Source: a bacterium
GTDB taxonomy: Bacteria; Bacillota; Clostridia; Christensenellales; Aristaeellaceae
Assembly: GCA_029009515.1 (NCBI GenBank)
Contig: JAQXJZ010000117.1
Coordinates: 1 to 38,288 of the forward strand
Length of the DNA: 38,288 nucleotides
Direction of reading: 5' to 3'
How positions within the stretch are numbered: position 1 is the stretch's first letter; the number at the start of each line of letters is the position of its first letter. The notes beneath the pieces were generated by a model. It made no database searches, was not told the DNA's origin, and saw only the letters and a program-made list of their open reading frames with translations. The translations under genes and the position numbers were made by a program. Shown here piece by piece: positions 1 through 17,041 of this stretch.

Positions 1-69
1 CCTGGACCCCAGCGAGTTGAGTGTATCTTTCTTTCGGGTTGCTTTTGTTTGTTGAGCGCCTTCTAAGAC

Positions 70-122
70 GCTAAAATCCCATCAACACCAGCCTGACGGC
101 TGACAGTTGATGAGATTTTAGC
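70..122. repeat. Long imperfect hairpin with 17-bp arms
   Basis: The arms at 70-86 and 106-122 are reverse complements with one mismatch (outer bases GCTAAAATC and GATTTTAGC). Inside the loop is a second small stem, CAGCC-TGAC-GGCTG. The AT-rich outer arms would suit a transcription terminator for an unseen upstream gene, but no clear T-run follows on either strand. It could also be the end of a small mobile element. Confidence 0.6.
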
Positions 123-169
123 TGCTTGTGGGGTTGAGAAACAAGGGTGCTGCCGGTATGTTCGTGCAC

Positions 170-267
170 GGGCGCACACATAGGTGCGCCCCTACGGTGG
201 TACCGGGGCTGTATTGAAATGCAGATCGGTTTGGTTGCCTTGTAGGGGCGCACCTGCGTGTGCGCCC
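170..267. repeat. Paired palindromic REP-like element
   Basis: Two 26-bp arms (170-195 and 242-267) are inverted copies with 24 of 26 bases matching, separated by 46 bp. Each arm is itself a palindrome, with GGGCGCAC facing GTGCGCCC across a short loop, followed by a CTAC/GTAG edge. Two inverted hairpin units with a spacer is the layout of bacterial REP/BIME-type intergenic elements. Family membership is inferred from structure only. Confidence 0.65.
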
Positions 268-407
268 GATGGCGACAGGTAACTTGCTTCATTCCCTATG
301 CCTTCATATTGTAGCCTCGCTTTGCCGTTGGGCAAAGGTGAGGCGGATCAAACGGCGACAGCTGCTTGATAAGACCTGCTCCTGAATATTTACCATCCCC
401 GCACACG

Positions 408-430
408 GGGGTCCAGGGGTTTACCCCTGG
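408..430. repeat. Short perfect hairpin
   Basis: CCAGGGG (413-419) pairs with CCCCTGG (424-430) around a TTTA loop. The overlapping ten bases GGGGTCCAGG at 408-417 are the exact reverse complement of the first ten bases of the window, so the stretch 1-417 may be bounded by inverted repeats. Confidence 0.5.
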
Positions 431-454
431 TCGTTTCAAGGGGGATACGGGATT

Positions 455-500
455 CCTAAGGGGGTAAGGGGGGAAATCGAAATCCCCCCTCCCCCTTAGG
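455..500. repeat. Very stable G-run/C-run hairpin upstream of the CotH cluster
   Basis: CCTAAGGGGG with a following G-run (455-473) faces a C-run ending CCCCCTTAGG (483-500) around a short AT loop. No T-run follows on either strand, so it is not a textbook terminator. It lies about 130 bp upstream of the likely -10 element of the CotH cluster. The rest of 1-683 shows no credible gene. Confidence 0.55.
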
Positions 501-632
501 CCCTAGCGGAGCGGGCCCCGACGCGCGCACCAAACAAAGGCCGCAACGCGTGACTCGGCCGTCAACCCGTTTTCCGTCAACCCCACCCCACACTTTTTAC
601 ACCCGCGCATTCCCAACCGCCGCCGCATATGG

Positions 633-638
633 TATACT
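633..638 (+). promoter_or_regulatory. Candidate -10 element of the CotH cluster
   Basis: TATACT lies 46 bp upstream of the preferred GTG start at 684. No good -35 box is visible at 16-18 bp spacing, so either the promoter is weak or activated, or transcription starts elsewhere. Confidence 0.35.
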
Positions 639-683
639 AAAAGATGGTGACATATGCGTATGCGCCGGAAGGAGTGGTCTGCT

Positions 684-2855
684 GTGAAATGGATGAAACG
701 GGCAATGCTGATCGCAGCAGTTTTGTGCTGCGCTCTGGGCGCTGCCTTTGCAGAGGAACTCGTGGCGCATGTGCCCCTTGCGGGCGGTACGGCGGAGATC
801 AGAGCCAGCATCGTGGATGGCGAAGCATGGTTCCTGCTGCCCTCCTTTGCATCGGAGGATACCGTGACGTATACGCTGGACGGCCAGCCCGTCAGCGCGG
901 ATGACGTGAACACCATGTTCTCCCAAAACCTGCGCGCCCTGTTCCTCATCAGCGATGATCCCGCCAACCAGGGCCGCGCATACATCGATGGCAACGCCGC
1001 GCGCTCAGCCTTCGCCACAGGCCGCATGGTGATGGTGGATGAAAATGGCGCGGTGGATCACACCGCGGGCATCGATATGCTGCGCGGGCGCGGCAACTCC
1101 ACCTGGGTGGCGGACAAGAAGCCCTACCACCTCAAGCTGGACGCCCGAACCGATCTGCTGGATATCGGCCAGCCGTCCCGCAAATGGGTGCTGCTGGCGG
1201 ATGCCATTGACGCAAGCCTCATCCGCAATATCATGACGCTGGATCTGGCGCGCGAGCTGGGCATTGCCTCCACGCCGCATGCCGAGCATGTGGATCTGTA
1301 CTACGACGGCGAGTACCGCGGCACCTACCTGCTGTGCGAAAAGATCGAAGTGGGCGAGTTTGGCGTGGACGAGCTGGACTACGACGAGCTGCTCAAGCGC
1401 CTCAACCGCACCATCGGCAACTACGATCTGGATGCGCTGCCCACGGCGGAAGCGCTCAACCGCTTTGAAAACCGCCTGTATTACACCGACGGCATGGTGG
1501 AGCCCACCCTGCCGTCCTCCGGCGCGTACTTTGTGGAGACCGAGGGCAATGCCACGCCCGACGACCGCTGCTGGTTCACCCTGTCGGATACGTCCGCTTA
1601 CGCGCTCAAAAACCCGGAAAACGCCACGGCGCGCATGATGACCTACATCAGCGAGCGGCTGGAGGAGGCGCGCGAAACGCTTGTTTACGGCGGCGTGCAT
1701 CCGCAAACCGGGCGCACCGTGGAAGAGGACTTTGACGTGGACGGCTTCGCCCGCGTGGCGCTTCTGCACGAGCTGGCCTATAACCCGGACAGCTATGAGC
1801 GCTCCTCCTTCTTCGTGCTGCCTGCGGGCGAAACGCGCTTTGAAACCGGCCCCATCTGGGACTTTGACCTCTCCTGGCGCTACCGCACCAATCTGGCCAA
1901 TGCAGGCGGCCATGAGCTGCAAAAGATGGAAGGCTGGCTGCCGGACTTCTACGGCGTGGATGCGGTGTGGACAAGGATGGGCGAAATCTGGCGCGATGAG
2001 CTGTATCCCCTTGTGCGCGATGTGCTGCTGGGGGATGAAGAGGGCGTGCATCTGCGTTCCATTGACGACTATGCCGCGCACATCGAGGCGTCCCGCCTGA
2101 TGAACGACGTGCTCTGGGACACGCACGAGCTCACCCGCCTTGTCTACGGTGCGGATTACGAAGAGGAAATCGCGCTGCTCAAGCGCTACCTCACCGAGCG
2201 CAGCGAATGGTTCGGCGAGCAGCTGGCAACCAGGAAGGCGGACCCCGAGCAGGTGGATATCCGCATTCAGGCCGAGTTCCTGGCCTTCGGCGATTACCTG
2301 ACCGTCACGGCCTATCCGTGGAGCCGAGCCGAGGTGGTGTGGTTTGACCGCCAGCAGCTCAGCGAGGCTACGGAGGAATATCACGCCTGCTGGCAGGTGG
2401 ATATGGCCATCCAGCCCGCGCCCGGCCATACCTTTGAGGAGCCGGAGATCACCGTCAACGGCGTGCCGCTGGACTACTGGATCACCGAGGACGGGCTGGC
2501 CTATGTGACCGCCTATGTGCAGGATCTGTCCTACCGCCCGGCGGAGTACTACGGCGAGGACATGGGCATGGTGTTCGACTTCGATTACTACGCCGCCCAG
2601 CACCCGGACGTCGCCGAGGAATGCGGCTACGATCCGGAGCTGCTGCTGGAATACTTCTGCGACGAGGGCATGTATGAGGGCCACATGGGCAATGCCTTCT
2701 TCAATCCCATCGAGGTCGCGCACAAGAACCCCTACCTCGTGGAGATGATCGGCGAGGACTGGTGGACGTATTATACTGAGTTTATCTACTACGGCTATGA
2801 GGAAGGCTGGCTTAAGGACGGCAAAACCTTCCTGCCGCCTGTGGTGACCGAATGA
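684..2855 (+). CDS. Secreted CotH-family protein kinase-like protein, copy 1
   Basis: A 723-aa protein of the CotH kinase family, atypical secreted or spore-coat kinases; Bacillus subtilis CotH phosphorylates coat proteins CotB and CotG. The start is taken as GTG at 684, because AAGGAG at 669-674 is 9 bases upstream; an ATG at 654 is in frame but has no ribosome site. A signal peptide ends near AAFA-EE. The core shows RGRGNSTW then KKPY (about residues 134-148), LYYDGEYRG, the catalytic-type motif NPDSY (Asp369) and WDFD (Asp393, Asp395), matching the NGDSY and PWDYN motifs recalled from B. subtilis CotH. The C-terminal 90 or so residues form a helical module (PDVAEECGYDP and GEDWWTYY). It is the first of six tandem paralogues. 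The substrate is unknown. Confidence 0.85.
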   Translation: MKWMKRAMLIAAVLCCALGAAFAEELVAHVPLAGGTAEIRASIVDGEAWFLLPSFASEDTVTYTLDGQPVSADDVNTMFSQNLRALFLISDDPANQGRAYIDGNAARSAFATGRMVMVDENGAVDHTAGIDMLRGRGNSTWVADKKPYHLKLDARTDLLDIGQPSRKWVLLADAIDASLIRNIMTLDLARELGIASTPHAEHVDLYYDGEYRGTYLLCEKIEVGEFGVDELDYDELLKRLNRTIGNYDLDALPTAEALNRFENRLYYTDGMVEPTLPSSGAYFVETEGNATPDDRCWFTLSDTSAYALKNPENATARMMTYISERLEEARETLVYGGVHPQTGRTVEEDFDVDGFARVALLHELAYNPDSYERSSFFVLPAGETRFETGPIWDFDLSWRYRTNLANAGGHELQKMEGWLPDFYGVDAVWTRMGEIWRDELYPLVRDVLLGDEEGVHLRSIDDYAAHIEASRLMNDVLWDTHELTRLVYGADYEEEIALLKRYLTERSEWFGEQLATRKADPEQVDIRIQAEFLAFGDYLTVTAYPWSRAEVVWFDRQQLSEATEEYHACWQVDMAIQPAPGHTFEEPEITVNGVPLDYWITEDGLAYVTAYVQDLSYRPAEYYGEDMGMVFDFDYYAAQHPDVAEECGYDPELLLEYFCDEGMYEGHMGNAFFNPIEVAHKNPYLVEMIGEDWWTYYTEFIYYGYEEGWLKDGKTFLPPVVTE

Positions 2856-2866
2856 GGAGGAAAACC

Positions 2867-5080
2867 ATGAAACGATGGCTGGCGCTTTTCACGCTCATCC
2901 TGTGCTGCCTCATCGGGCCTGCGCTGGGCGAGGAAGCGATGGAGAGCAGAGAGCGGGATATTTCCGTCTCGTCCATCCGCGCCGTGGTGCCTGTGCAGGG
3001 CGCGCAGGTGGACATCCGCGCATCGGTGGTGGATGGCGAAACGTGGCTGCTGCTGCCCGCCTTTGCCGATCAGGCGAAGATGCAGCTGTTTGACGGCGAC
3101 CAGCCTGTGACGGACGCTGACGTGCAGATCATGCAGAGCGAAAACCTGCGCGCGCTGTTCCTGCTCAGCGACGATCCTGTTTCTCAGGGCCGCGAATACA
3201 TCGACAACTGCGAGCGCCACGAGCACTTCACCACCGCGTCCATGGCACTGGTGGATGCGGACGGCCATGTGGATCACGTGGGCAAAATCCGCAAGCTGCG
3301 CGGCCGCGGCAACGGCACCTGGGGCGGCGGCAAGAAGCCCTACCAGTTCAAGCTGGACGAGCCCATGGATCTGCTGGATACCGGCCTGGCCAGCGAAATG
3401 GAGCGCACCTGGGTGCTGCTGGCGGAATCCTCCACGCAGACGATGCTGCACAACCGCATCACGCTGGACATGGGCCTGGAGCTTGGCCTTTCGGAAACCT
3501 CGCACAGCGAGCATGTGGATCTCTACTACGACGGCGAGTACCGCGGCACCTATCTGCTGGCGGAAAAGGTGGAAATCGGCGAGGGCCGCGTGGATGAGAT
3601 GGACTATGAAAAACTCATCGGCCAGTGGAACGACAAGGTGGGGCAGACCGACCTGAGCGTGCTACCGGTGAAGGAAGGCGTCAATCAGTTCAACCAGCCC
3701 TACACGTATCTGGACGGCGTGATCGAGTCCGCGTCTCCCGACGCGGGCGCGTATCTGGTGGAGATCGAATCCACCTACACGCTGTCGGAAAAATGCTGGT
3801 TCACCATGCACGACGGGCAGATCCTGTCGCTCAAGAACCCCGAAAGCGCTTCCGGGAAGATGGTGGAATACATCTCCAACCGCCTGCAGGATGCGCGCAA
3901 CACGCTGCTTTCCGGCGGCGTGAACTCCGAAACCATCCGCACCATCCACGACGACTTCGACGTGGACGCCTTTGCGCGCACCATGCTGGTGCAGGAGCTC
4001 AGCTACAACTACGACGGCTACCGCTATTCGTCTTCCTTCTTCGTACTGCCTGCGGGCAGCACGCAGTTCCGCCCCGGCCCGCTGTGGGATTTTGACATCG
4101 GCTACCGCTACCTGTCCAACGGTCTGGCGGCCAACGGCGTGGGTTTCAAGGAAACCAGCGGCTGGATGTACGATTTCTACCAGTGCCCGGATTTTGTGGA
4201 ATCTGCGCGGCAGATCTACGAAAACGAGCTGTACCCCATGGTGAGGGACATCCTGCTGGGAGATCAGCAGGGGCGGTATCTGCAATCCCTTGATGCCTAT
4301 GTGGCGCAGATTGAGGCGTCGCGGCAGATGAACGCCGTTCTGTGGCCGCGCAGCACGCTCAACCGCTACGTGTACGCGCTGGATCACGAGGGCGAGGTGG
4401 CGCTGCTGCGCCGCTTCCTCACCGAGCGCAGCGAGTGGCTGCACGGCGTATTTGGCGAAGAGCCCGATGACAACCGCATCGACCTGTGGGTGAGCGCCAC
4501 CTACGGCCACACCGGCGAGACCCTGCTTGTGCAGCAGAAGCCGTGGAACCGCCTCAAGGTGGAGGATGTGTGGTTTGAGCAGATGACCGAGGCCACCGAG
4601 GAGGAATACGCCTGGTGGCAATTGTGGATCTGGCTGGAAAACGACGGCGGCGAAGCGCCTGTTGTCACCGTAAACGGCGTGGAACTGCCGGCTGAAATGG
4701 ATGAGGACGGCACGTGGTGCGTGGGCGGCGCGTTTGCCGATCCGTCCTATCGCCCGGTGGATTACTACGGCGAGGACATCGGCATGATCTACAACTACGA
4801 CGTCTATGTCGAAAACTATCCCGAGGTGGCCGAGGAATGCGGATACGATCCGCAGGCCGTGATGGATGCCTTCTACGACGAAGGCATCTATGAAAACCAC
4901 ATGGGCAACGCCTTCTTCCGGCCCAGCGATGTGCTGGCCGCCTTCCCGGAGATGGAATACATGCTGGGCGAGGACTGGTGGCTGTATTACGGAGAGTTCC
5001 TCTCCTACGGCTACGAAATCGACAAATGGCTGATGCACATGGGCAAGTGCTACTGGCCCGAAGTGATCAGCATGTATTAG
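2867..5080 (+). CDS. Secreted CotH-family protein kinase-like protein, copy 2
   Basis: A 737-aa paralogue of the preceding gene, starting 11 bp after its stop. AGGAGG overlaps the upstream stop codon and sits 6 bases before the ATG, so translation is probably coupled. A signal peptide (MKRWLALFTLILCC start, ending ALG-EE) is followed by about 25 extra residues absent from copy 1. The CotH motifs are intact: RGRGNGTW, KKPYQFKL, LYYDGEYRG, NYDGY (Asp383) and WDFD (Asp408, Asp410). The C-terminal helical module is present (YPEVAEECGYDP, GEDWWLYY). This copy is followed by the only large gap inside the array. Confidence 0.85.
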   Translation: MKRWLALFTLILCCLIGPALGEEAMESRERDISVSSIRAVVPVQGAQVDIRASVVDGETWLLLPAFADQAKMQLFDGDQPVTDADVQIMQSENLRALFLLSDDPVSQGREYIDNCERHEHFTTASMALVDADGHVDHVGKIRKLRGRGNGTWGGGKKPYQFKLDEPMDLLDTGLASEMERTWVLLAESSTQTMLHNRITLDMGLELGLSETSHSEHVDLYYDGEYRGTYLLAEKVEIGEGRVDEMDYEKLIGQWNDKVGQTDLSVLPVKEGVNQFNQPYTYLDGVIESASPDAGAYLVEIESTYTLSEKCWFTMHDGQILSLKNPESASGKMVEYISNRLQDARNTLLSGGVNSETIRTIHDDFDVDAFARTMLVQELSYNYDGYRYSSSFFVLPAGSTQFRPGPLWDFDIGYRYLSNGLAANGVGFKETSGWMYDFYQCPDFVESARQIYENELYPMVRDILLGDQQGRYLQSLDAYVAQIEASRQMNAVLWPRSTLNRYVYALDHEGEVALLRRFLTERSEWLHGVFGEEPDDNRIDLWVSATYGHTGETLLVQQKPWNRLKVEDVWFEQMTEATEEEYAWWQLWIWLENDGGEAPVVTVNGVELPAEMDEDGTWCVGGAFADPSYRPVDYYGEDIGMIYNYDVYVENYPEVAEECGYDPQAVMDAFYDEGIYENHMGNAFFRPSDVLAAFPEMEYMLGEDWWLYYGEFLSYGYEIDKWLMHMGKCYWPEVISMY

Positions 5081-5178
5081 CCGGCCTGCGCCGGTGGCTT
5101 TTCGACCAAGGTGCAGAAAAGCTGAGTTCGTCCCACGATCCAAACTTGACTTTTCCACAACAAACCGGCCTTCGCCGG
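5081..5178. repeat. Hairpin-rich gap between CotH copies 2 and 3
   Basis: Copies 2 and 3 are 122 bp apart, whereas the other copies are 11-21 bp apart. The gap holds two near-identical GC hairpins, CCGGCCTGCGCCGG (5081-5094) and CCGGCCTTCGCCGG (5165-5178), and a third stem, GCTTTTC (5097-5103) pairing with GAAAAGC (5116-5122). They could attenuate or process the transcript. No clear promoter is visible. Confidence 0.5.
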
Positions 5179-5202
5179 TAACCAGAAAAGGACGGTGCGT
5201 TT

Positions 5203-7509
5203 ATGAAGCATCTGTGGAGGATCCTTGCGCTGCTTGCGGTGCTGCTCATGCTGGCCGCGCCGGTTTTGGCCGAGGAATCCATCTGGGAGGAAGACGCGGC
5301 CAGCACAGTGGCGGTCTCTGCGCTCAGGGCGCAGGTGGCGGCCAGCGGCGCGGATGTGGACGTGTACACCACGGAAATGGACGGCGTGCACTGGCTCTTC
5401 CTGCCCTCCTTTGCCGATGCGGATGAACTGCGCCTCACGCTGAACGGCGCAAAGGTGGATTGGACGCCCGACGCCGAAGAAGCCGGCGTGACCTACGGCC
5501 AGGCGGTGTGCGAGGACGGCGCGGAGATGACCCTGTGCGTGATGAAGAGCCAGAATCTGCGCGCGCTGTTCCTCTTCAGCGACGATCCCGTCAACCAGGG
5601 CCGCGCCTTCATCGACAACTGCGAGCGCCATGTGAACGAGACCACCGGCATGATGGCCGTCATCAGCCCGGACGGCACGGTCAACTACGCCGGCAAGCTG
5701 CGCCAGCTGCGCGGCCGCGGCAACTACACCTGGCAGCGCCAGAAGAAGCCCTACCAGTTCAAGCTGGAAAGCAAGGCGGATCTGCTCATGACCGGCGATC
5801 AGTCCGAGTGCAGCCGCACCTGGGTGCTGCTGGCCGAAACCTCGGACGGCAGCCTGCTTCGCAACCGCATGTCCATGGATCTGGCGCTGGAGATGGGCAT
5901 CGATGAAACGCCCTTTTCCGAGCATGTGGATCTGTACTACGACGGCGAATACCGCGGCACCTACCTGCTGACCGAAAAGGTGGAGGTGGGCGAAGGCCGT
6001 CTGGAAGTGTCTAACTATGACGAGATGATGGAAATCTGGAACCAGTCCGCCGGCATCAGCGATCCGGAGCTGCTGGAGGTGGGCGTGGGTCAGACAAAGT
6101 ATGGCACGGATTTCACCTACATCAAGGGAGTGGCCGAGGCGGATGATCCGTCCGTGGGCACCTTCGTGATGGAGATGGAACACGAGGGCAACACGCTTTC
6201 CGACCGCTGCTTCCTGCGCATGGAGGACGGCAGCGTCATCGCTGCCAAGAACCCGGAGAATCCCTCCGAAAGCATGATGCGCTACGTGAGCGAGCGGCTC
6301 ATTGAGGCGCGGCACACGCTGCAAAACGGCGGCGTGAACCCGGACAATGGCCGCACCATCCGCGACGACTTTGACGTGGACGCCTTTGCCAAATTGCTTC
6401 TGCTCAACGAGCTGGCGCACAACACCGACAGCTACTACTATTCCTCCTCCTGGTTCATCCTGCCCGAGGGCGAAACCCGCTTCCGCCCCGGCCCCGCGTG
6501 GGACTTTGACCTTGCGTGGCGCTACTTCCGGAAGGGCGTGAACGAAAAGGGCATGGGCGTGAAGGATCTGACCGGCTGGCATGCGGAGTTCTACAGCTGT
6601 CCGGAATTCATGCAGGCCATGCAGCGCGCGTATGAGGAAACGCTCTATCCCATCGTGACGGAGATTCTGCTGGGCGATAAGCAGGGAACCTATCTGCGCC
6701 CCCTGTGGGACTATGCCGACGAGATCGCCGCGTCCCGCGCCATGAACGACGTGCTGTGGGACTGCGAGTATTACGACTACCACATCTACGGCGAAACGCC
6801 GCAAGAGGAAGTGGAGCTGCTCTATCAGTTCATCGAGGAGCGCAACGCCTGGCTGTACGATGCTGTCATGAACGCGCAGGACGGCGCGGATGCCATCGAC
6901 CTGTGGGCCTATGCCGGCTACATGCACGTGCAGGATACCCTCAAGCTGAACGCCTGCCCGTGGAACCATGTGAACGTGGCGTTTGCTTCCTGCACGCCGC
7001 TGACCGAGGCCACGGAGGACGAATACGCCACCTGGGCGCTGGAAGCGTACCTCATGCCGGAGGAAGGCTACGCCTTTGAGGAGCCTTCCGTCACCATCAA
7101 CGGCACGCCCATCACCGGCTATCTGGTGGAGGACGGCTCGGCGCTGTATGTGTACGCCGAGTTTGAGGATCCCTCCTACCGCCCGGTGGATTACTGGGGC
7201 GAGGACATCGGCATGTTCTACAACCCCGATGTGTACGCGCAGAACTACCCCGAGATCGCCGCGCAGTTCGAGGGCGACCCCGAAGGCCTGATGACCTACT
7301 TCTGCGATGAAGGCATGTATCAGGATCAGATGGGCAATGCCTTCTTCCGCCCCAGCGAGGTGCTCCAATACAACCCGGAGCTGCTGGGTGTGCTGGGCAC
7401 GGACTGGGAGCTGTATTACTTTGAATTCTCCTTCTGCGGCTACGAGGAAGGCTGGATGCGCAAGGTGGACAAGCACTTTGCGCTGGAATGCGTGGATGTG
7501 CCCGAATAA
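5203..7509 (+). CDS. Secreted CotH-family protein kinase-like protein, copy 3
   Basis: The longest copy, 768 aa, starting at ATG 5203 with AAAAGGA upstream. A signal peptide (ending PVLA-EE) precedes an N-terminal segment with an insertion of about 20 residues around residue 90. The CotH core is complete: RGRGNYTW, KKPYQFKL, LYYDGEYRG, NTDSY (Asp409) and WDFD (Asp434, Asp436). The C-terminal part has the shared SYRPVDYWGEDIG strand and then the helical module (YPEIAAQFEGDP, GTDWELYY). The YPEIAAQFE segment is nearly identical to that in copy 4, suggesting recent duplication or gene conversion. The role is inferred from the family; the target is unknown. Confidence 0.85.
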   Translation: MKHLWRILALLAVLLMLAAPVLAEESIWEEDAASTVAVSALRAQVAASGADVDVYTTEMDGVHWLFLPSFADADELRLTLNGAKVDWTPDAEEAGVTYGQAVCEDGAEMTLCVMKSQNLRALFLFSDDPVNQGRAFIDNCERHVNETTGMMAVISPDGTVNYAGKLRQLRGRGNYTWQRQKKPYQFKLESKADLLMTGDQSECSRTWVLLAETSDGSLLRNRMSMDLALEMGIDETPFSEHVDLYYDGEYRGTYLLTEKVEVGEGRLEVSNYDEMMEIWNQSAGISDPELLEVGVGQTKYGTDFTYIKGVAEADDPSVGTFVMEMEHEGNTLSDRCFLRMEDGSVIAAKNPENPSESMMRYVSERLIEARHTLQNGGVNPDNGRTIRDDFDVDAFAKLLLLNELAHNTDSYYYSSSWFILPEGETRFRPGPAWDFDLAWRYFRKGVNEKGMGVKDLTGWHAEFYSCPEFMQAMQRAYEETLYPIVTEILLGDKQGTYLRPLWDYADEIAASRAMNDVLWDCEYYDYHIYGETPQEEVELLYQFIEERNAWLYDAVMNAQDGADAIDLWAYAGYMHVQDTLKLNACPWNHVNVAFASCTPLTEATEDEYATWALEAYLMPEEGYAFEEPSVTINGTPITGYLVEDGSALYVYAEFEDPSYRPVDYWGEDIGMFYNPDVYAQNYPEIAAQFEGDPEGLMTYFCDEGMYQDQMGNAFFRPSEVLQYNPELLGVLGTDWELYYFEFSFCGYEEGWMRKVDKHFALECVDVPE

Positions 7510-7530
7510 TCAACAAGGAGGCAGCCGCCT

Positions 7531-9735
7531 GTGAAACGATGCTGGATGATCGCCGCGCTTGTGCTGGTGCTTTTGTGCTGCACCGCACAGGCCGTGGAAC
7601 TGCCCGTAGGCGAAGGAACCATCCATATCTCTGTCAAGGACATGTGGGGGGAGCAGTGGATGTTCCTGCCCGCCTTTGCCGACCGCGAAAGCCTGTTTCC
7701 GGGCGCGGCGGACATTGGCGACGGCTTCTGGGAATGGACGGATGAAAACGGCGAGCCCCTCTACATCCTGCAGTCGGAAAACCTGCGCGCGCTGTTTCTG
7801 ATCAGCGACGATCCTGAAAACGAGGGCCGCGAGTACGTGGAAAACTGTCTGGAGCACGAAAACCAGACCACCGGCAGCATCGCGCTGGTGGATGCGCAGG
7901 GCCATCTGAACTACGCGGGCGACCTGCGCCAGCTGCGCGGGCGCGGCAACGGCACGTGGCATCACCCCAAGCGTCCGTATCAGATCAAGCTGGAGAAAAA
8001 GGCGGATCTTTTGAACACCGGCGATCCCGACGAAGTCAACCGTACCTGGGTGCTTTTGGCCGAGGCCACGGACGGCACGCTCCTGCACAATAAGCTGGCG
8101 TTTGATCTGGGACTGGAGCTGGGCATGGAAGAGACCTCGCACAGCGAGTTTGTGGATCTGTACTACGACGGCGACTATCGCGGCACCTATCTGCTGGCCG
8201 AAAAGGTGGAGGTGGCCGACGGGCGCATCGAGGGCCGCGACTACGACGATCTGATCGAGGAATGGAACCAGAACGTCGGCGTGACGGATTTTGATTCCCT
8301 GCCCGTGGGCTATGGCGAAAACAGCTGGGGCGAGATGTTCACCTACATCAAGGGCGTGCAGGACAGCAACTGGCTGGACGCAGGCACCTATCTGCTGGAG
8401 ATGGAAAGCCCCAACGGCTCTACCCTCAGCGACCGCTGCTGGTTCCGCATGCGCGACGACTCCACCGTGGCGCTCAAAAGCCCGGAAAACGCCAGCGAGG
8501 AAATGGTGCGCTACATCTCCGATCAGCTCACCATGGCGCGCGAAACGCTGGTGGAGGGCGGCGTGAACTCGCGCACGGGGCGCACCATCGAGCAGGACTT
8601 CGACGTGGACGCCTTTGCGCGTCTGGCGCTCATCAACGAGCTGGCGTACAACCTGGACGGCTTCACGTGGTCGTCCACGTGGTTTGTGCTGCGCGAGGAA
8701 AGCGACCAGTTCCAGCCCGGCACCGCGTGGGATTTTGACCTGGCGTGGCGCTATCTGGCCGACGGCACCAACGAAAACGCCGTGGGCGTGAAGGACAAGA
8801 CCGGGTGGCTTCCGCAGTTCTACCAGTGCAAGCCCTTCTCCGACCGCATGTACGAAATCTACCGCGACGAGCTGTACCCCATGATCACCGATATCCTGCT
8901 GGGCGAAAACGAGGGCGAATACCTGAAGCCGCTGGATCGGTACGCGCAGGAGATTGAAGCATCCGCCTACATGAACGGCTTCCTCTGGGAGCCGGTGGTG
9001 GACGCAAGGCTGGTGTACGGCGCGGATCGGGTGGAAGAACTGGCGCTGCTTGAACAGTTCATCACCCAGCGCAGCCAGTGGCTGCACCGCGTGATTGTGG
9101 ACGAGCACGAAAGCGGCGCGGACGGCGTGGAGCTGAGCTTTGACGTCATCTGGGGTCACCCGGACGGCGGGCTGGACATCCGCGTGATTCCGTGGAGCGA
9201 CGTGCAGCTGGTGAGCTATGAAAGCACCGTGTACGAGGAAGCCACCGAGGAAAGCTACGCCATCTGGCAGGTGGAAATGCTCTTTGAGGCGCGAAACGGC
9301 ATGACCTTTGAGGGAATGACCGCCATCGTCAACGGTCAGGAGATGGAAGCCGAGCTTCTGGACGATGGCCGCATGCGGCTGCTCATCGGCTTTGAGGACC
9401 CGTCCTACCGCCCCGTGGATTACTACGGCGAGGACATCGGCCTCATCTACAACCCCGATATCTATGCCCAAAACTATCCCGAGATCGCCGCGCAGTTCGA
9501 GGACGACCCCGAAGGCCTCATGAACTACTTCTGCGACGAGGGCATGTACGAAAACCACAAGGGCAACGCCTTCTTCTGCCCGTCGGATATCCTGCTGCAC
9601 AACACCTATCTGGAGGAAATCCTGGGCACCGACTGGCAGAACTATTATTGGGAGTTCCTCACCTACGGCCACGAGGACGGCTGGCTGATCAACATGGGCT
9701 ATACCTACAAGCCCGAGGTGTGGAACCTGATGTGA
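7531..9735 (+). CDS. Secreted CotH-family protein kinase-like protein, copy 4
   Basis: A 734-aa paralogue with a GTG start at 7531, chosen because AAGGAGG (7515-7521) is 9 bases upstream. Its signal peptide is MKRCWMIAALVLVLLCC followed by TAQA. The N-terminal region shares the phrase on SENLRALFLISDDP found in all copies. CotH motifs: RGRGNGTW, KRPYQIKL, LYYDGDYRG, NLDGF (Asp376) and WDFD (Asp401, Asp403). The C-terminal helical module is present (YPEIAAQFEDDP, GTDWQNYYW). All residues expected for catalysis are kept. It lies 21 bp downstream of copy 3. Confidence 0.85.
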   Translation: MKRCWMIAALVLVLLCCTAQAVELPVGEGTIHISVKDMWGEQWMFLPAFADRESLFPGAADIGDGFWEWTDENGEPLYILQSENLRALFLISDDPENEGREYVENCLEHENQTTGSIALVDAQGHLNYAGDLRQLRGRGNGTWHHPKRPYQIKLEKKADLLNTGDPDEVNRTWVLLAEATDGTLLHNKLAFDLGLELGMEETSHSEFVDLYYDGDYRGTYLLAEKVEVADGRIEGRDYDDLIEEWNQNVGVTDFDSLPVGYGENSWGEMFTYIKGVQDSNWLDAGTYLLEMESPNGSTLSDRCWFRMRDDSTVALKSPENASEEMVRYISDQLTMARETLVEGGVNSRTGRTIEQDFDVDAFARLALINELAYNLDGFTWSSTWFVLREESDQFQPGTAWDFDLAWRYLADGTNENAVGVKDKTGWLPQFYQCKPFSDRMYEIYRDELYPMITDILLGENEGEYLKPLDRYAQEIEASAYMNGFLWEPVVDARLVYGADRVEELALLEQFITQRSQWLHRVIVDEHESGADGVELSFDVIWGHPDGGLDIRVIPWSDVQLVSYESTVYEEATEESYAIWQVEMLFEARNGMTFEGMTAIVNGQEMEAELLDDGRMRLLIGFEDPSYRPVDYYGEDIGLIYNPDIYAQNYPEIAAQFEDDPEGLMNYFCDEGMYENHKGNAFFCPSDILLHNTYLEEILGTDWQNYYWEFLTYGHEDGWLINMGYTYKPEVWNLM

Positions 9736-9749
9736 AAGGAACGATGCGC

Positions 9750-11966
9750 ATGAAACGCTGGAAAGCCATCTGCCTGCTCATGCTGGTGTGTCTGCTGTGC
9801 GCAGGCGCGGCGCATGCGCAGGACTATGCCTTCACCCTGCGCGCCACCTTTGCCACGGTGGATATCCTGCCCAGCGCGGTGGATGGCGAGGCATGGCTGT
9901 TCCTGCCCACGTTTGCAGACCCGGACGATCTGGGCCTTGCGTGGCTGGATGACGGCCCGGACGAAGCGGGCGTGCGCCGCGCGGAAAAAGACGGCGTTAC
10001 GTACTATGTGATGCAGTCTGAAAACCTGCGCACCGTGTTCCTCTTCAGCGATGATCCCGTCAACGAGGGACGCTCCTACATCGAAAACTGCGCCCGCCAC
10101 GTGAATGAGACCACCGGCCGCATGGCGGTGGTGGACGTGAACGGTCAGGTGGATGTGGTGGAGCGCCTGCGCCAGCTGCGCGGACGCGGCAACGGCACGT
10201 GGCTGCTGGAAAAGCGCCCGTACCAGATCAAGCTGGAAAACCGCCTCGATCTGCTCAAAACCGGCGATCCTGCCGACAAGAACCGCACCTGGGTGCTGCT
10301 GGCCCAGGCCACGGATCTCACCGCCCTGCGCCCGCGCATCGCGCTGGATCTGGGGCTGGAGATGGGCATCGAATCCAGCAGCAAGAGCGAGTACGTGGAT
10401 CTGTACTACGACGGCGAATATCTGGGTTTGTACCTGCTGGCTGAGAAGGTGGAAATCGGCACGGGGCGCATCGATCAGGTGGATTATGACGAGCTTCTGG
10501 ATGCGTGGAACCAGAGCGAGCTGGAATATCACGGCGTGGCGCAGGGCAAGAACCGCTTCGGCAACCGCTTCACCTATATTGAGGACGTGGCCGACGGCGG
10601 CTTCACCGACGCGGGCGCGTACATGCTGGAGATGGAGAGCATCAACGGCAGCACCCTTTCCGACCGCTGCTACTTCCTGATGGACGACGGCAGCACCATT
10701 GCCCTCAAAAACCCGGAAAACGCCTCCGAGCCCATGGTGCGCTACATCAGCGAACGCCTGACCGAAGCCCGCCGCACGCTGCAAAACGGCGGCGTGAACC
10801 CGGAAAACGGCCGCACCATCGAGGAGGATTTCGACATCGACGCCTTCGCCCGTGTGGCGCTCATCAACGAGCTGGCCTGCAATCTGGACAGTTTCTCGTG
10901 GTCGTCCACGTGGTTCATCCTGCCCGCCGGCGAAAGCCGCTTTGTGCCCGGCCCGCCGTGGGATTTTGACAACGCCTGGTCCTACCTCACCGACGGCACC
11001 ATGCCCGGCGGACGTGGGCTGAAGGAGCGCACCGGCTGGATGCCGGAGTTCTACCAGTGCAAGGCGTTTTCCGACACGATGTGCCGCATCTACGAGGAAG
11101 AACTCTATCCCCTCATCCAGAATGTGCTGCTGGGAGACGGCGAAGGCGAGTACCTGCGCTCCATCGACAGCTACGCCGCCCACATCGCCCAGTCCAGCCG
11201 CATGAACCAGAAGCGCTGGAACATCAAGCGCGCCAGCAGCCTGGTGTATGAGGAAAGCGCGGAGGAAAACATCAGCCTGCTCAAGCGCTTCATCTCCGAC
11301 CGCGGCGACTGGCTCTACCGCGCCATGGTCACGGGCGAGCAGCTGGGCGCGGACGGGCTGGAAATCACCCTGCGCGTCAAGTACGGCTTTGCCGACAGCG
11401 AGCTGGACTTCTGGCTGCCGCCGTGGGTGGAGGCCAGCGTGACGGACTTTGACTGCGAAATGATCGCTGAGGCCACGGAGGAGGACTACGCCGTGTATGC
11501 GGCGGAGGCCATCATTGAGCCCGAAGAGGGATTCGCGTTTGAGAATCCTCAGGTGTATGTCAACGGCTGCCTGCTTTCTTCCGAACAGCTGGACGACGGC
11601 ACGCTGCGCATCGCCTTTACGTTTGAGGATCCCACCTATCGCCCCGTGGATTACTACGGCGACGACGTGGGGCTGGTATATCAGTACGATTACTACATCC
11701 AGCATGAGCCGCAGGTGGCGGACATCGTGGGCGACGACCCGGATGCGGTGCTGGAATACTTCTGCGAAGAGGGCATGTATCTGGGCCACAGGGCTACCCC
11801 GTTTTTCAAGCCTGCCGAGATCGTGCTCTACAATCCCCACCTGGCGGATATGTTCGGTGAGGACTGGCAGCTGTATTATTGGGATTTTATCTCCTACGGC
11901 TATGACGAAGGCTGGCTGTACCCCATGGACAAGCGCTTCTGGCCCAATGTGACCGACGCGCTGTGA
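9750..11966 (+). CDS. Secreted CotH-family protein kinase-like protein, copy 5
   Basis: A 738-aa paralogue. Two in-frame ATG codons exist at 9744 and 9750; 9750 is preferred because AAGGA at 9736-9740 is then 9 bases upstream rather than 3. The signal peptide ends GAAHA-QD. The core keeps RGRGNGTW, KRPYQIKL, LYYDGEYLG, NLDSF (Asp380) and WDFDNAW (Asp405, Asp407). The C-terminal module reads EPQVADIVGDDP and GEDWQLYYW. The bases around its start are identical over 18 bp to those at the start of copy 6, so the two junctions probably arose by duplication. Confidence 0.85.
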   Translation: MKRWKAICLLMLVCLLCAGAAHAQDYAFTLRATFATVDILPSAVDGEAWLFLPTFADPDDLGLAWLDDGPDEAGVRRAEKDGVTYYVMQSENLRTVFLFSDDPVNEGRSYIENCARHVNETTGRMAVVDVNGQVDVVERLRQLRGRGNGTWLLEKRPYQIKLENRLDLLKTGDPADKNRTWVLLAQATDLTALRPRIALDLGLEMGIESSSKSEYVDLYYDGEYLGLYLLAEKVEIGTGRIDQVDYDELLDAWNQSELEYHGVAQGKNRFGNRFTYIEDVADGGFTDAGAYMLEMESINGSTLSDRCYFLMDDGSTIALKNPENASEPMVRYISERLTEARRTLQNGGVNPENGRTIEEDFDIDAFARVALINELACNLDSFSWSSTWFILPAGESRFVPGPPWDFDNAWSYLTDGTMPGGRGLKERTGWMPEFYQCKAFSDTMCRIYEEELYPLIQNVLLGDGEGEYLRSIDSYAAHIAQSSRMNQKRWNIKRASSLVYEESAEENISLLKRFISDRGDWLYRAMVTGEQLGADGLEITLRVKYGFADSELDFWLPPWVEASVTDFDCEMIAEATEEDYAVYAAEAIIEPEEGFAFENPQVYVNGCLLSSEQLDDGTLRIAFTFEDPTYRPVDYYGDDVGLVYQYDYYIQHEPQVADIVGDDPDAVLEYFCEEGMYLGHRATPFFKPAEIVLYNPHLADMFGEDWQLYYWDFISYGYDEGWLYPMDKRFWPNVTDAL

Positions 11967-11980
11967 AAGGAACGATGCGG

Positions 11981-14137
11981 ATGAAGCGGTTTTGGATCGC
12001 GGCGGCATTTCTCATTTTGCTGCTTCTGCCCTGCTGGGCGCTGGCGCAGGTGTATGCGCTGCCGGTGCAGGGCGGCGCGGTGGATGTGTGCACCATGGAA
12101 GTGCACGGCGTGAACTGGCTGTTTCTACCCGCCTTTGCCGACGTGGACGCCATGTTTCCCGAAAAGGAGGATCTGGGCGGCGCGTGGCAGACGCAGGATG
12201 AAAACGGCGAAATGCTGTTTGTGATGCAGTCGCAGAACCTGCGCTCGCTCTTCCTCTTCAGCGATGATCCGGAAAACGAGGGACGCGCCTTCATCGAAAA
12301 CTGCGAAAAGCACGTGAACGAAACCACCGGCCACATGGCGCTGATCAGCACGGACGGTTTGGTGGATCACTCCGATGATCTGCGCCAGCTGCGCGGGCGC
12401 GGCAACTCCACCTGGTACAACCAGAAGAAACCCTACCAGTTCAAGCTGGAGGGTCGCGCGGATCTGCTGCGTACCGGCAATCCCGACGAAAAGCACCGCA
12501 CATGGGTGCTTTTGGCCGAGGCGTGGGATCAGACCCTTCTGCGCAACAAGATTTCGCTGGATCTGGCGCTGGAGATGGGCGTGGAGGAAACATCGCACTC
12601 TGAGCATGTGGATCTGTACTACGACGGCGAATACCGCGGCGTGTATCTGCTTGCCGAGAAGGTGAAAGTGGACAGGGGCCACGTGGACGAGATGGACTAC
12701 GGCAAGCTGATCAAAGCGTGGAACGAGGAGGTCGGCCAGTATGATCTGGACAGCCTCGAGGCCGGACAGGGTCAGAACCGCTTTGGCCACGAAATCCACT
12801 TCGTGAACGGCCTGGCCGAGACGGAGGAACCCACCGCGGGCGCGTACCTGCTGGAGATGGAGGGCGAGGGCACGCTGAGCGACCGCAGCTGGTTCAGGCT
12901 GGGCGACGAATCCATCATGGGCCTGAAGAACCCCGATAACGCCTCCGAAAAGATGGTGGCCTATGTGAGCGAAAAGCTGGAGGAAGCCCGGCTGGCGCTG
13001 GCAGACGGCGAGCCGATGGAAAACTATTTTGACGTGGACAGCTTTGTGCGCGCATCGCTTCTGTACGAGCTGAGCTATTCCGACAGCGGCTTCCACTATT
13101 CATCCTCCTACTTTGTGCTGCCGGCCGGGCAGAGCATCTTCCGCGCCGGCCCCGTGTGGGATTTTGACCTTACGTGGCGCTACTGGCACAACGGCATCAA
13201 CGACCACGGCGTGGGTATCAAGGACGCGTCCGGCTGGATGACGGAGTTCTATGAGGACGAAGGTTTTTTCAAGCAGCTTCAGCAGGTGTACGCGGAGGAG
13301 TGCTACCCCATGATCCGCGATATCCTGCTGGGCGAAAAGCAGGGAACCTATCTGCAGCCGCTGGATGAATATGCGGCGCACATCGAGGCCGCCGCCGCCA
13401 TGAACGACATGCTCTGGCCGCAGCAGCAGTACATCCGCAGCATCTACGCCGCCGACTGGTACAGCGAGGTGGAGCTGCTGCGCCGGTTCATTGAGGAGCG
13501 CAGCGCGTGGCTGCACAGCGTGATCGTGGAAAATGCCGAAACCGACAGCCTCACCGTGCGCGCGCTGCACGGGCATGTGGAGGATGAGCTGATCTTCCAG
13601 ACCCTTCCGTGGTGCGATGCACAGGTGAAGGAATACTGGCATGAGCAGGTGAGCGAGGCGGACGAGGAAAACTACGCCGTCTGGTATGCCGAGGCTGTCC
13701 TTCAGAACGCAGAGCAGGAGGAAGTGTGCGTAAACGGCACGCTGCTTTCCGGCGAGCGTCAGGAGGACGGCAGTCTGCGCATTGCCTTCACGTTTGAGGA
13801 CCCCTCCTACCGCCCGGTGGATTACCACGGCGACGATATCGGCCTGGTGTACGATTACGACACCTATGTGCAGAACTATCCGTGGCTGCTGGACGAGTAC
13901 GGCGACGACCCCGAGGCCGTGATGGAGTACTTCTGCGACGAGGGCATGTACGAAGGCCACGTGGCCAACGCCTTCTTCAACCCCAGCTGGATTCTTTTGT
14001 GCAACCCCGATCTCGGCGACGTGTTCGGCGAGGACTGGCAGCTGTATTATTGGGATTTCATCTCCTACGGCCACGACGAGTGCTGGCTGTACGCCACGGA
14101 CGACGGCTTCCGGCCGGAGGTGCAGGATGCGCTGTAA
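11981..14137 (+). CDS. Secreted CotH-family kinase-like protein, copy 6, catalytic Asp replaced
   Basis: A 718-aa paralogue, starting at ATG 11981 by the same spacing argument as copy 5. The signal peptide ends CWALA-QV. RGRGNSTW, KKPYQFKL, LYYDGEYRG and WDFD (Asp394, Asp396) are kept. In the gapless alignment between the conserved EL and SSS motifs, the NxD found in the other five copies reads SDS here: Asn became Ser367 and the catalytic-type Asp became Ser369, with an Asp one position earlier. It may be inactive, act as a pseudokinase partner, or use the shifted Asp. It also has a short deletion before the DVDSF helix. Its 3' end overlaps the next gene by 11 bp. Confidence 0.83.
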   Translation: MKRFWIAAAFLILLLLPCWALAQVYALPVQGGAVDVCTMEVHGVNWLFLPAFADVDAMFPEKEDLGGAWQTQDENGEMLFVMQSQNLRSLFLFSDDPENEGRAFIENCEKHVNETTGHMALISTDGLVDHSDDLRQLRGRGNSTWYNQKKPYQFKLEGRADLLRTGNPDEKHRTWVLLAEAWDQTLLRNKISLDLALEMGVEETSHSEHVDLYYDGEYRGVYLLAEKVKVDRGHVDEMDYGKLIKAWNEEVGQYDLDSLEAGQGQNRFGHEIHFVNGLAETEEPTAGAYLLEMEGEGTLSDRSWFRLGDESIMGLKNPDNASEKMVAYVSEKLEEARLALADGEPMENYFDVDSFVRASLLYELSYSDSGFHYSSSYFVLPAGQSIFRAGPVWDFDLTWRYWHNGINDHGVGIKDASGWMTEFYEDEGFFKQLQQVYAEECYPMIRDILLGEKQGTYLQPLDEYAAHIEAAAAMNDMLWPQQQYIRSIYAADWYSEVELLRRFIEERSAWLHSVIVENAETDSLTVRALHGHVEDELIFQTLPWCDAQVKEYWHEQVSEADEENYAVWYAEAVLQNAEQEEVCVNGTLLSGERQEDGSLRIAFTFEDPSYRPVDYHGDDIGLVYDYDTYVQNYPWLLDEYGDDPEAVMEYFCDEGMYEGHVANAFFNPSWILLCNPDLGDVFGEDWQLYYWDFISYGHDECWLYATDDGFRPEVQDAL

Positions 14138-14867
14138 ATGGCTTGCGATGCTTTTGTGCCTGCTGATGATGGACAGCGCGTGCGCGGAGGAGCGCTTTGT
14201 GTTCGGCCAGTCGGAGATGGGGCGTGACCTCGCCTGCGTGAGGCTGGGCGACGAGGCGGCGGAAAAATCGCTTTTGATGACCTTCGCGGTGCATGGCTTT
14301 GAGGACGCGTACGACCACGACGGCCAGCTGCTGGTGGAGATTGCGGAGCTCCTCATTGCGCACTACGACGCCGACCCGTCCGGCCTGAGGGGCCACGCCC
14401 TGTACATCGTGCCGTGCGTCAATCCCGATGGATTGCTGGACGGCACCAGCCGCAACGGCTTTGGCCGCGCCAACGCCAACGGCATCGATATCAACCGCGA
14501 TTTTTCCGCCCGCTGGCAGAAGTTTACCAACGGCCGCAACCAGACCGGCGACAAACCCTTTGCGTCCGCCGAGGCGCGCGCCATCCGCGATCTGGTGGAG
14601 CAGATCCAGCCCGCATGGGGCGTGGATGTGCACGGGTGGATTGAGTGCGTGTACGGCACGCGCAGCCTGGCCCAGCCCTTCATGGAGGCCTTCGGTGTGA
14701 AGTATGCCGATTACATCACCGGCGGCAAGCTGTCGCAGTGGCTGGCCAAAAACGCCGAGGCCGCCGTGCTGGTGGAGCTGCCGCGCAATCCCGGCGGGCA
14801 GGAATACGTGCAGGACTGCGCGCAGAAGCTGATTGCAGGACTGGATGCGTGGTTTGCCGCCCAATGA
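14127..14867 (+). CDS. Secreted M14-family zinc carboxypeptidase
   Basis: A 246-aa protein with a signal peptide ending SACA-EE. M14 enzymes use one zinc ion to cut C-terminal residues or peptidoglycan stem peptides. The visible signature is complete: HGFE (His56, Glu59) as the first two zinc ligands, NPDG, GIDINRDF, DVHGW (His169) as the third ligand, and VELP (Glu218) in the position of the catalytic base. It is short for the family, so it is a bare catalytic domain with no wall-binding part. The start overlaps the end of CotH copy 6 by 11 bp, with GGAGG 5 bases upstream, so it is co-translated with the kinase array. Trimming secreted proteins or wall peptides is an inference from context. 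Confidence 0.8.
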   Translation: MRCKWLAMLLCLLMMDSACAEERFVFGQSEMGRDLACVRLGDEAAEKSLLMTFAVHGFEDAYDHDGQLLVEIAELLIAHYDADPSGLRGHALYIVPCVNPDGLLDGTSRNGFGRANANGIDINRDFSARWQKFTNGRNQTGDKPFASAEARAIRDLVEQIQPAWGVDVHGWIECVYGTRSLAQPFMEAFGVKYADYITGGKLSQWLAKNAEAAVLVELPRNPGGQEYVQDCAQKLIAGLDAWFAAQ

Positions 14868-14912
14868 TTTACAAGAAATGCCTCATGGACTGTGTCGCTT
14901 TGGCGCAGGATG

Positions 14913-14921
14913 TGATATAAT
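14913..14921 (+). promoter_or_regulatory. Extended -10 promoter of the VanW-like gene
   Basis: TGATATAAT is an extended -10 box 35 bp before the TTG start at 14956. No clear -35 box is visible, which is common for extended -10 promoters. It argues that the next gene is transcribed independently of the CotH array, and that an in-frame ATG at 14926 lies too close to the promoter to be the start. Confidence 0.6.
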
Positions 14922-14955
14922 CCCCATGAATGCCACAGGAAAGGAATGTTCCGTT

Positions 14956-16107
14956 TTGAAGAAATGGCTTCGGATCGCCGCGCTTGTGATGGCGCTGATG
15001 ATGACGCCGCTGAGCGTGCTGGCGGAGGAAGAAATCAGCATGTTTGAAAATACCGAAACCCTGCCCTCCGGCGTGGAGCTGGAAGGCATGGCGGACGACG
15101 AGGAATCCGTGCAGGCGGACGCCGTGGGCCAGTGGGCCGACATCAATGGCCTCAAGCCCCTGTACACCACCAGGATCAAGCCCTTTGTGGCGGATGGTCA
15201 GGCCATCCGCATGCGCGCCCAGCAGAGCGGCGAAAGCGAAGTGGTGTGCTCCATCCGCAAGGGCGAAACCATCACCGTGTACGCGGTGTACCCCAGCTAC
15301 GTGCTGGCCGAGTACAACGGCAACGTGGGCTATGTCATCCGCACCTGGGTGGACGAAACCATGACCGCCATCGACCCGGAAAACACCCCGCCCTACGGCG
15401 TGGTGCCCTCGCAGTACGTGGCCACCCTCACTACCGATGAAACGCCCATCTACACCGCGCCTTCTCTGGACGCCGCGGTGCACGATATCCACCCCAACGC
15501 CGGCAGCAAGATTGCCATTCTGGAGTTTGTGGACGGCTTTGCCAAGGTGCTCTACTGGCGCAGCTACGGCTACATCGAGGCCAGCCGCCTGAGCGACCTG
15601 GTGGTGGTTGCCTCCAGCGATGAACCCCTCAGCCCGGATACGCCCATTGCGGCGTTCTGCAGCTTCTTTGAGTTCAACACCGGCAAGTCCGGCAACGACG
15701 GCCGCTGCAAGAACATCGTGCGCAGCTGCGAAAGCATGACCCGCGTGATGCAGGTGGGCGAGAGCCTGGACTTCAACAACCAGGTAGGCCCCTACAAGCG
15801 CACCAACGGCTATCATCCCGCGCCCGTGCTCATCGATGGCGGCAGCCAGCTGGGCTACGGCGGCGGAACCTGCCAGTCCTCCTCCACGCTGTTCAATGCC
15901 GTGCGCCAGGTGCCCGGCGTCACCATCGTGCACCGCCGTCCCCACGGCCCCGGCTGCGCCAAGTACCTGCCCATGCATCAGGACGCGGCGGTGGGCAGCA
16001 CGGAGCTGAACTTCATCTTCCGCAACGACGGCGAGTATCCCATCCGCATTCTGGCCGAAAGCACCGGCGAAGGCACGCTGTGCATTCAGGTCTTTCGCGG
16101 CGAATGA
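14956..16107 (+). CDS. VanW-family cell-wall protein with SH3-like domains
   Basis: A 383-aa secreted protein. The start is TTG at 14956, with AAGGAA (14941-14946) 9 bases upstream; this gives a clean signal peptide (LKKWLRIAALVMALMM start, cleavage after LSVLA). After an acidic linker come one or two bacterial SH3-like segments (about residues 70-215, with IRMRAQQSGESEVV and a second weaker copy). A VanW domain follows to the C-terminus (FNTGKSGNDGR, QLGYGGGTCQSSSTLFNA). VanW proteins occur in glycopeptide-resistance clusters and widely in Firmicutes; their biochemical role is not settled. SH3-like domains usually bind peptidoglycan or sense wall state. The stop codon lies in the loop of a hairpin (16092-16121). 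Confidence 0.8.
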   Translation: MKKWLRIAALVMALMMTPLSVLAEEEISMFENTETLPSGVELEGMADDEESVQADAVGQWADINGLKPLYTTRIKPFVADGQAIRMRAQQSGESEVVCSIRKGETITVYAVYPSYVLAEYNGNVGYVIRTWVDETMTAIDPENTPPYGVVPSQYVATLTTDETPIYTAPSLDAAVHDIHPNAGSKIAILEFVDGFAKVLYWRSYGYIEASRLSDLVVVASSDEPLSPDTPIAAFCSFFEFNTGKSGNDGRCKNIVRSCESMTRVMQVGESLDFNNQVGPYKRTNGYHPAPVLIDGGSQLGYGGGTCQSSSTLFNAVRQVPGVTIVHRRPHGPGCAKYLPMHQDAAVGSTELNFIFRNDGEYPIRILAESTGEGTLCIQVFRGE

Positions 16108-16202
16108 AGACGCCGCGAAAGAGTGAAGTTTGCCTGCGGCAAGTGAAGTCGCTGCGCTGGTGAAGCCGCTTCGCCAGTGAAGTTTTCCGCCGTTGGCGGA
16201 AA
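16092..16202. repeat. Array of small hairpins separated by GTGAAG
   Basis: TGAAG occurs at 16105-16109 and GTGAAG at 16123-16128, 16143-16148, 16160-16165 and 16177-16182, giving spacings of 17-20 bp. The intervening segments are small stems: CTTTCGCGGCG/CGCCGCGAAAG (16092-16121, with the VanW stop in its loop), TTGCC-TGC-GGCAA (16130-16142), GGTGAAGC/GCTTCGCC, and TTTCCGCC-GTT-GGCGGAAA (16184-16202). The spacer sequences differ while the hexamer and stem shape recur. It is not a CRISPR array. Confidence 0.6.
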
Positions 16203-16256
16203 GATGATAGTTAGCTGTGCGGGAATGCTGGTTGTGCATGCTTCCTGCGTACATTG

Positions 16257-16290
16257 AAAAACAGCCGGGGCTTTTGCTCTGGCTGTTTTT
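16257..16290 (+). terminator. Rho-independent terminator after the VanW-like gene
   Basis: AAAAACAGCC pairs with GGCTGTTTTT, with a T-run on the plus strand and an A-run upstream, so it could also act on the minus strand. Confidence 0.75.
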
Positions 16291-16302
16291 ACAGCATAAT
16301 AG

Positions 16303-16332
16303 AAGCCGGGTCACCCATGTGGGGACCCGGCT
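16303..16332. terminator. Second hairpin between convergent genes
   Basis: AGCCGGGTCACCC pairs with GGGGACCCGGCT around ATGT, followed by TATTTGTGTTT on the plus strand. It sits between the convergent VanW-like and hpt transcripts and may serve either direction. Confidence 0.5.
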
Positions 16333-16352
16333 ATTTGTGTTTAGGTTCCGTT

Positions 16353-16460
16353 TCAGGCCCTGCGGCGGCGGATCATCATCATGCCGGTCAGGCTGAGCAG
16401 CATGAGGGCGAAGAACATGGCCAGCGGCGTGTTATCGCCGGTGGAGGGCAGCCTGTGAAT
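16353..16460 (-). pseudogene. Orphan LPXTG cell-wall sorting signal (gene remnant)
   Basis: Reading leftward from inside the end of hpt, in a different frame, gives HRLPSTGDNTP, then a hydrophobic stretch (LAMFFALMLLSLTGMMM), then IRRRRA and a stop at 16353-16355. This is a complete sortase sorting signal: LPSTG pentapeptide, membrane segment and positive tail. No start codon with a ribosome site and no secreted protein body precede it; the frame simply runs back into hpt. The likely reading is the tail of a surface protein whose front was lost when hpt was joined here. A frameshift fusion to hpt is possible but would put an anchor on a cytosolic enzyme. Confidence 0.65.
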
Positions 16461-16474
16461 GACGATGGAAAGAA

Positions 16475-17035: not shown

Positions 17036-17041
17036 GGCAGA

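Follow-up and report, generated by a model that had tools for sequence, protein, structure and literature searches.

A tandem run of six predicted secreted CotH-fold proteins, one without the catalytic aspartate, in a genome of the Aristaeellaceae

To our knowledge, little is understood of the protein kinases that bacteria secrete, and targets have been established for few CotH proteins other than those of Bacillus. What, then, might a gut bacterium do with six of them in a row? The question is raised by a draft genome of the family Aristaeellaceae (hereafter G000; 3.02 Mb in 175 contigs, 86% complete), one contig of which (C117, JAQXJZ010000117.1) was analysed over its whole length of 38,288 nt, referred to here as the window. 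As a sequence-only reading had proposed, six CotH paralogues lie there head to tail at 684-14137, all of them complete open reading frames (ORFs) of 720-768 aa in which the only stop codon is the terminal one. We give about an even chance to the view that a single subfamily of secreted CotH-fold kinases has expanded here into an operon-like tandem array that acts at the cell envelope. Judged by their residues, five of the copies look catalytically competent and the sixth does not, and five predicted active copies together with one natural catalytic-site variant in a single operon-like run would provide a built-in comparison for exported kinases.

The Pfam CotH profile (PF08757) matches all six copies with E-values from 5.7e-19 to 4.3e-29 and scores of 69-103 bits, against a cut-off of 23.8, and it is covered in every copy from positions 1-2 to 321-322 of 322, with the domain falling within residues 133-551. 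The modelled region of copy 4 and its alignment to the Bacillus CotH structure 5jd9 support a CotH-type atypical kinase fold, the outcome on which the sequence-only reading had made its proposal depend. On the other hand, a full-length model of copy 1, built from six alignment rows, was poor (predicted local distance difference test score, pLDDT, 49.7) and supports no fold claim; in this low-confidence model, beta-rich regions may flank the kinase domain on both sides. In a separate observation, residues 143-243 of copy 2 match the unnamed phage family phrog_6813 of PHROGs (E 3.3e-13), and CotH-like segments therefore occur in phage proteins, while 99 pattern matches from viral contigs yielded no confirmed viral relative.

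According to excerpts of PMC7821199 (the other papers cited below are likewise represented by excerpts), either D228Q or D251A inactivates the CotH of B. subtilis. In the alignment to 5jd9, the Asp of an NFDGF motif and that of a WDYD motif stand 23 residues apart, which is the spacing of 228 and 251, and we infer that they are the counterparts of the catalytic D228 and the metal residue D251. Both are kept in copies 1-5, as is the Lys of a KKPY/KRPY motif. Copy 6 reads YSDSGF where copy 4 has YNLDGF, with a Ser at the catalytic position, an Asp one residue earlier and the metal Asp kept; it is a predicted pseudokinase or altered kinase, the activity of which may be rescued by a local shift. 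With this Asp missing from copy 6, the array may include a protein that is no kinase; the absence of a long branch, for its part, gives copy 6 no appearance of decay. A comparison of 57 CotH domains, taken from 94 hits in fetched loci after duplicates and domains shorter than 230 residues had been dropped, and leaning heavily to the family under study, found the metal Asp in all 57 and the catalytic one in 54, the exceptions being copy 6 and two domains with Thr, one on contig C80 of G000 and one on contig C33 of a congener, G004 (a draft as well, like the genomes of all relatives, and 65% complete). Both Thr variants (L065:7052-9322 and L058:8307-10481, respectively) are single, dispersed CotH relatives with the same C-terminal tail as the array proteins, and they form a further lineage of predicted pseudokinases that both species retain. 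Because they are sisters in the tree, two independent losses of the catalytic Asp are the simplest reading.

The copies have diverged considerably. Copies 2-6 are 44-50% identical in protein sequence to copy 1, all pairs fall between 44 and 52%, and the mean codon-aligned DNA identity is 62%, values that rule out a duplication of the array by assembly. Differences per site amount to 0.367, 0.305 and 0.455 at the first, second and third codon positions; with identities so low at both levels and third positions most variable, the genes appear as old paralogues under coding constraint. The earlier claim that every copy carries a signal peptide is borne out by crude hydropathy, which places a hydrophobic core within residues 6-21 and finds matches to a loose AXA-like motif in all six, whereas no later hydrophobic or membrane stretch appears in any of them (19-residue mean of at most 1.20); by this measure each copy has an export signal peptide and no later membrane segment. 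At the other end, each protein finishes in two degenerate units, about 42 residues long and marked by recurrent Pro, Asp, Phe and Gly. Within G000 the only proteins found to have this tail were the array copies and a seventh CotH, the dispersed one of contig C80, and in 300 genomes of the family it was found on 20 ORFs from 12 genomes, 19 of which also match CotH. The twentieth (L153:1489-3249, contig C111 of genome G306), named by eye, is a glycosyltransferase-like protein with two cleaner repeat units, which rules out a module exclusive to CotH and indicates that the tail is a shared module rather than part of the kinase. Two marginal Pfam matches of the tail (E 0.045 and 0.098), each in one of the six members, were taken as chance, and a search against PDB gave no match up to E 1.

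Such features also suit surface binding proteins that are not working kinases, in which the CotH fold would act as a scaffold or adhesin and the array would be a diversified adhesin set. A use of this kind has been proposed for the invasin-type CotH of Mucorales, and fungal CotH proteins are described as receptors of human GRP78 (excerpts of PMC9973265); it also agrees that, among the 57 domains, the three that lack the catalytic Asp all belong to the array subfamily, that the terminal repeats occur on another kind of protein as well, and that the copies have diverged. We nonetheless regard it as unlikely, given that copies 1-5 keep both Asp residues and the KKPY/KRPY Lys at their low mutual identity, which would be unexpected if the chemistry were useless.

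The arrangement of the genes (Table 1) is compatible with co-transcription of the six cotH genes and a following gene for an M14 metallopeptidase. Start codons were picked by their ribosome-binding sites, and an in-frame ATG at 654 is a possible alternative start of copy 1. Gaps of 11-21 bp with one exception had been described; the exception stands, a gap of 122 bp before copy 3 being the only long one, but the series runs 11, 122, 21, 8 and 8 bp, so that two gaps are shorter than stated. The overlap of 11 bp between copy 6 and the M14 gene (14137 against 14127) is as reported, and a gene for an SH3_3-VanW protein, which we treat as context and not as core of the array, begins 88 bp after the M14 gene. 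A sigma-70-like promoter match upstream of copy 1 is weak evidence, as eight such sites were found in 1-17100 where 4.6 +/- 2.4 were expected.

Table 1. Positions of the array genes, their C-terminal repeats and adjoining features in the window
Feature	Position	Strand	Description
Sigma-70-like promoter match, upstream of copy 1	610..638	+	TG before -10; consensus match only
cotH copy 1	684..2855	+	723 aa; GTG start after GGAAGGAG; Pfam CotH E 1.9e-27; catalytic Asp present
C-terminal double repeat, copy 1	2520..2834	+	
cotH copy 2	2867..5080	+	737 aa; Pfam CotH E 5.7e-19 (read from 2852)
C-terminal double repeat, copy 2	4739..5059	+	
cotH copy 3	5203..7509	+	768 aa; Pfam CotH E 4.3e-29
C-terminal double repeat, copy 3	7165..7482	+	
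cotH copy 4	7531..9735	+	734 aa; GTG start; region 7786-9105 modelled
C-terminal double repeat, copy 4	9394..9714	+	
cotH copy 5	9744..11966	+	740 aa; Pfam CotH E 2.9e-26
C-terminal double repeat, copy 5	11625..11945	+	
cotH copy 6	11975..14137	+	720 aa; Pfam CotH E 2.4e-24 (read from 11978)
C-terminal double repeat, copy 6	13796..14116	+	
M14 metallopeptidase, MpaA-like	14127..14867	+	246 aa; likely signal peptide; Pfam Peptidase_M14 E 7.9e-15
SH3_3-VanW protein	14956..16107	+	~383 aa; likely signal peptide; VanW E 3.1e-28, SH3_3 E 4.5e-8 (read from 14950)

Coat proteins of B. subtilis are made in the cytosol of the mother cell, a mode unlike that of six proteins all bearing export signals. 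This difference speaks against a sporulation system in which, as in Bacillus, the targets of the kinases would be proteins of the coat, cortex or exosporium, a reading that we hold to be quite unlikely, and the promoter match speaks weakly in the same sense. The window, moreover, contains no CotB/CotG-like Ser/Lys-rich protein, in agreement with the sequence-only reading: its richest 60-aa stretches (33-37% Ser plus Lys) are non-repetitive and lie antisense to longer genes or out of frame with them. No Ser/Lys/Arg-rich substrate gene was found in the window either, which ends about 680 bp to the left of copy 1, so that the left neighbour of the array is not visible. On the side of the spore stand the founding CotH, a spore-coat kinase (PMC7821199), and the presence of SpoIVA in G000 (E 7.8e-111, a single marker that points to a spore-forming host) and in 19 of the 21 genomes searched, G000 included; because the genome encodes SpoIVA, a role in sporulation has to be kept in view.

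Is such an array common? The large searches for CotH scored the best three, five or six candidates per genome, and they detected it in 303 of 308 genomes of the family (best six) and in 56 of 398 genomes of a sample of the phylum (best five). The notion of CotH as mainly a single spore-coat kinase of Bacillus, held in the sequence-only reading, does not survive this result, nor does it fit published accounts of 17 genes in Mucor lusitanicus (PMC9973265), of CotH in cellulosomes (PMC12484212) and of CotH beside Pel operons (PMC7112168). G000 itself has ten CotH matches. In a search of 60 relatives G020 likewise reached ten, on seven contigs and with one gene counted as two matches, and the others have at most eight each among the matches listed. 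Same-direction CotH pairs were seen elsewhere, on contigs G000:C89, G055:C48, G044:C4 and G428:C5, but among the matches listed there was no run of at least three CotH genes outside the window, and the run of six was seen in no other genome. The pair on C89 (L063:951-4940) represents a different CotH subtype that carries chitobiase C-terminal and Fn3-associated domains.

Regarding the age of the array, a tree of 26 relatives united the six copies and one CotH of G004, on contig C90, in one clade (100/99), within which the G004 protein was sister to copy 2 (99/98, and 93/96 in a 12-row tree), with 59% identity between them. An approximately unbiased test rejected, at a modest p of 0.03, a tree in which the six copies were held together without the G004 copy. 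A recent expansion after speciation is therefore not favoured, since the G004 copy groups with copy 2, and on a plain reading of the sequences the array would predate the species split, with G004 having kept one copy. It is less likely that the other copies are missing from G004 by loss or through a gap in its incomplete genome, because its contig continues through flanking genes: ABC transporter genes precede the array-type copy, and an M14 gene (59%) and an SH3-VanW gene (70%) follow it.

The M14 protein has HGFE (HxxE at 56-59), NRDF, H169 and VELP (E217), which we take to be its zinc-binding and catalytic motifs. The MpaA of E. coli is cytosolic. The window protein, in contrast, is likely exported, although its best solved relative is the murein tripeptide amidase MpaA (PDB 5hxd, E 1.3e-12), and it is not an MpaA equivalog, because it reaches 51.4 bits (E 7.1e-14) against a cut-off of 157 in the NCBIfam model NF007897. 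That the peptidase is a partner of the kinases had also been suggested, with a survey as the refuting test. The suggestion holds weakly and in part: the order CotH-M14-SH3/VanW is kept in both genomes with CotH beside M14, G000 and G004, but these are only 2 of the 20 genomes, among 300 of the family and G000 included, that have M14 relatives (of the other 18, nine were seen in larger neighbourhoods and nine over about 1.5 kb on each side or to the contig end). M14 is thus ruled out as a general CotH partner in the family, and with the link confined to two species with array-type copies, it indicates a local operon and not a general two-part system. SH3-VanW genes, in turn, occur in 17 of 17 genomes of the genus, the other 16 being 58-74% identical to the window copy and in many different neighbourhoods; it lies beside CotH-M14 only in G000 and G004, and with the 15 others inspected, two of which have it on short contigs (3.1 and 4.9 kb), this gene too was ruled out as a partner of CotH.

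How would a kinase array of this sort work? Copies 1-5 would transfer phosphate to Ser/Thr residues of exported proteins, copy 6 might bind nucleotide, metal or partners as a pseudokinase, the C-terminal repeats would place the enzymes at the surface, and the M14 enzyme might trim wall peptides or some exported protein. The divergence of the copies probably serves the handling of different exported targets. Several points weigh against an expansion of envelope kinases. The subfamily tolerates the loss of kinase chemistry, as seen from copy 6 and the two Thr variants; ATP is scarce outside cells; SpoIVA is encoded in the genome; and CotH-M14 adjacency is as rare as described, with the SH3-VanW gene beside it in 2 of the 17 genus genomes. 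A more specific proposal, that five active kinases and a pseudokinase regulator form with an envelope peptidase one operon for clade-specific extracellular phosphorylation, diversified for surface or wall proteins in non-spore growth, we regard as doubtful.

The scarcity of ATP would be no obstacle if the CotH fold served another phosphoryl or group transfer, for instance from a polyphosphate donor or by nucleotidylation. A separate locus on contig C7 of the same genome (L064:383-4971) encodes a lamin-tail/CotH protein with DUF4956 and a VTC polyphosphate polymerase domain, which lends this idea some support, as does a published CotH beside a polyphosphate polymerase (PMC7112168). It seems to us very unlikely for the array, since its active-site pattern is that of ATP-using CotH and a Pfam scan of 16 window proteins (the six CotH and ten others; seven further neighbours were named by eye) gave no VTC or DUF4956 match.

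An envelope kinase array would differ from each of the closest systems known. Compared with Bacillus CotH (PDB 5jd9/5jda; chain of 359 residues in 5jd9), the array proteins are about twice as long, have export signals as well as additional regions at both termini, come six in tandem with no CotB/CotG-like gene in the window, and include one member without the catalytic Asp. In Firmicutes, CotH domains likewise occur outside spore coats, in cellulosomes and at Pel/polyphosphate loci (PMC12484212, PMC7112168), but no dockerin, lamin-tail, VTC or DUF4956 match was obtained in the six copies or the ten other scanned proteins; where the CotH-VTC-DUF4956/Pel type, present in G000 on C7, has its own companions, the array has M14 and SH3-VanW genes downstream. 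The fungal expansions also consist of many signal-peptide paralogues in one genome, whereas the array is bacterial, tandem and accompanied by M14, and excerpts of PMC9973265 mention no tight tandem operon in fungi. Altogether, CotH kinases, CotHs with signal peptides and genomes with multiple copies were known already (PMC9973265, PMC12484212, PMC7112168), and what the array would add is a tandem run of six together with M14 and a natural variant of the catalytic site; neither a tandem bacterial CotH array nor a run of six with these additions was found in titles and abstract openings of the open-licence literature.

Some minor observations concern the surroundings. A dispersed palindromic repeat (GTAGGGGCGCACCT..GTGTGCGCC) occurs as an inverted pair at 171-195 and 242-266. 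If up to three mismatches are allowed, the genome contains 43 matches to it, against none for a reversed-pattern control, and about ten of the 43 lie in the first 450 bp of a contig. These elements resemble miniature inverted-repeat transposable elements (MITE) or repetitive extragenic palindromes (REP), and they are the probable cause of the break in the assembly immediately to the left of the array. Near the array but outside it, 21813-23090 encodes a protein in which a VanY D,D-carboxypeptidase domain is combined with two peptidoglycan-binding domains. Finally, the minus strand at 23465-25585 encodes a 706-aa protein for which Pfam gave nothing up to E 0.001, adjoining genes for an AraC-type response regulator, a histidine kinase and an ABC transporter, the latter named by eye.
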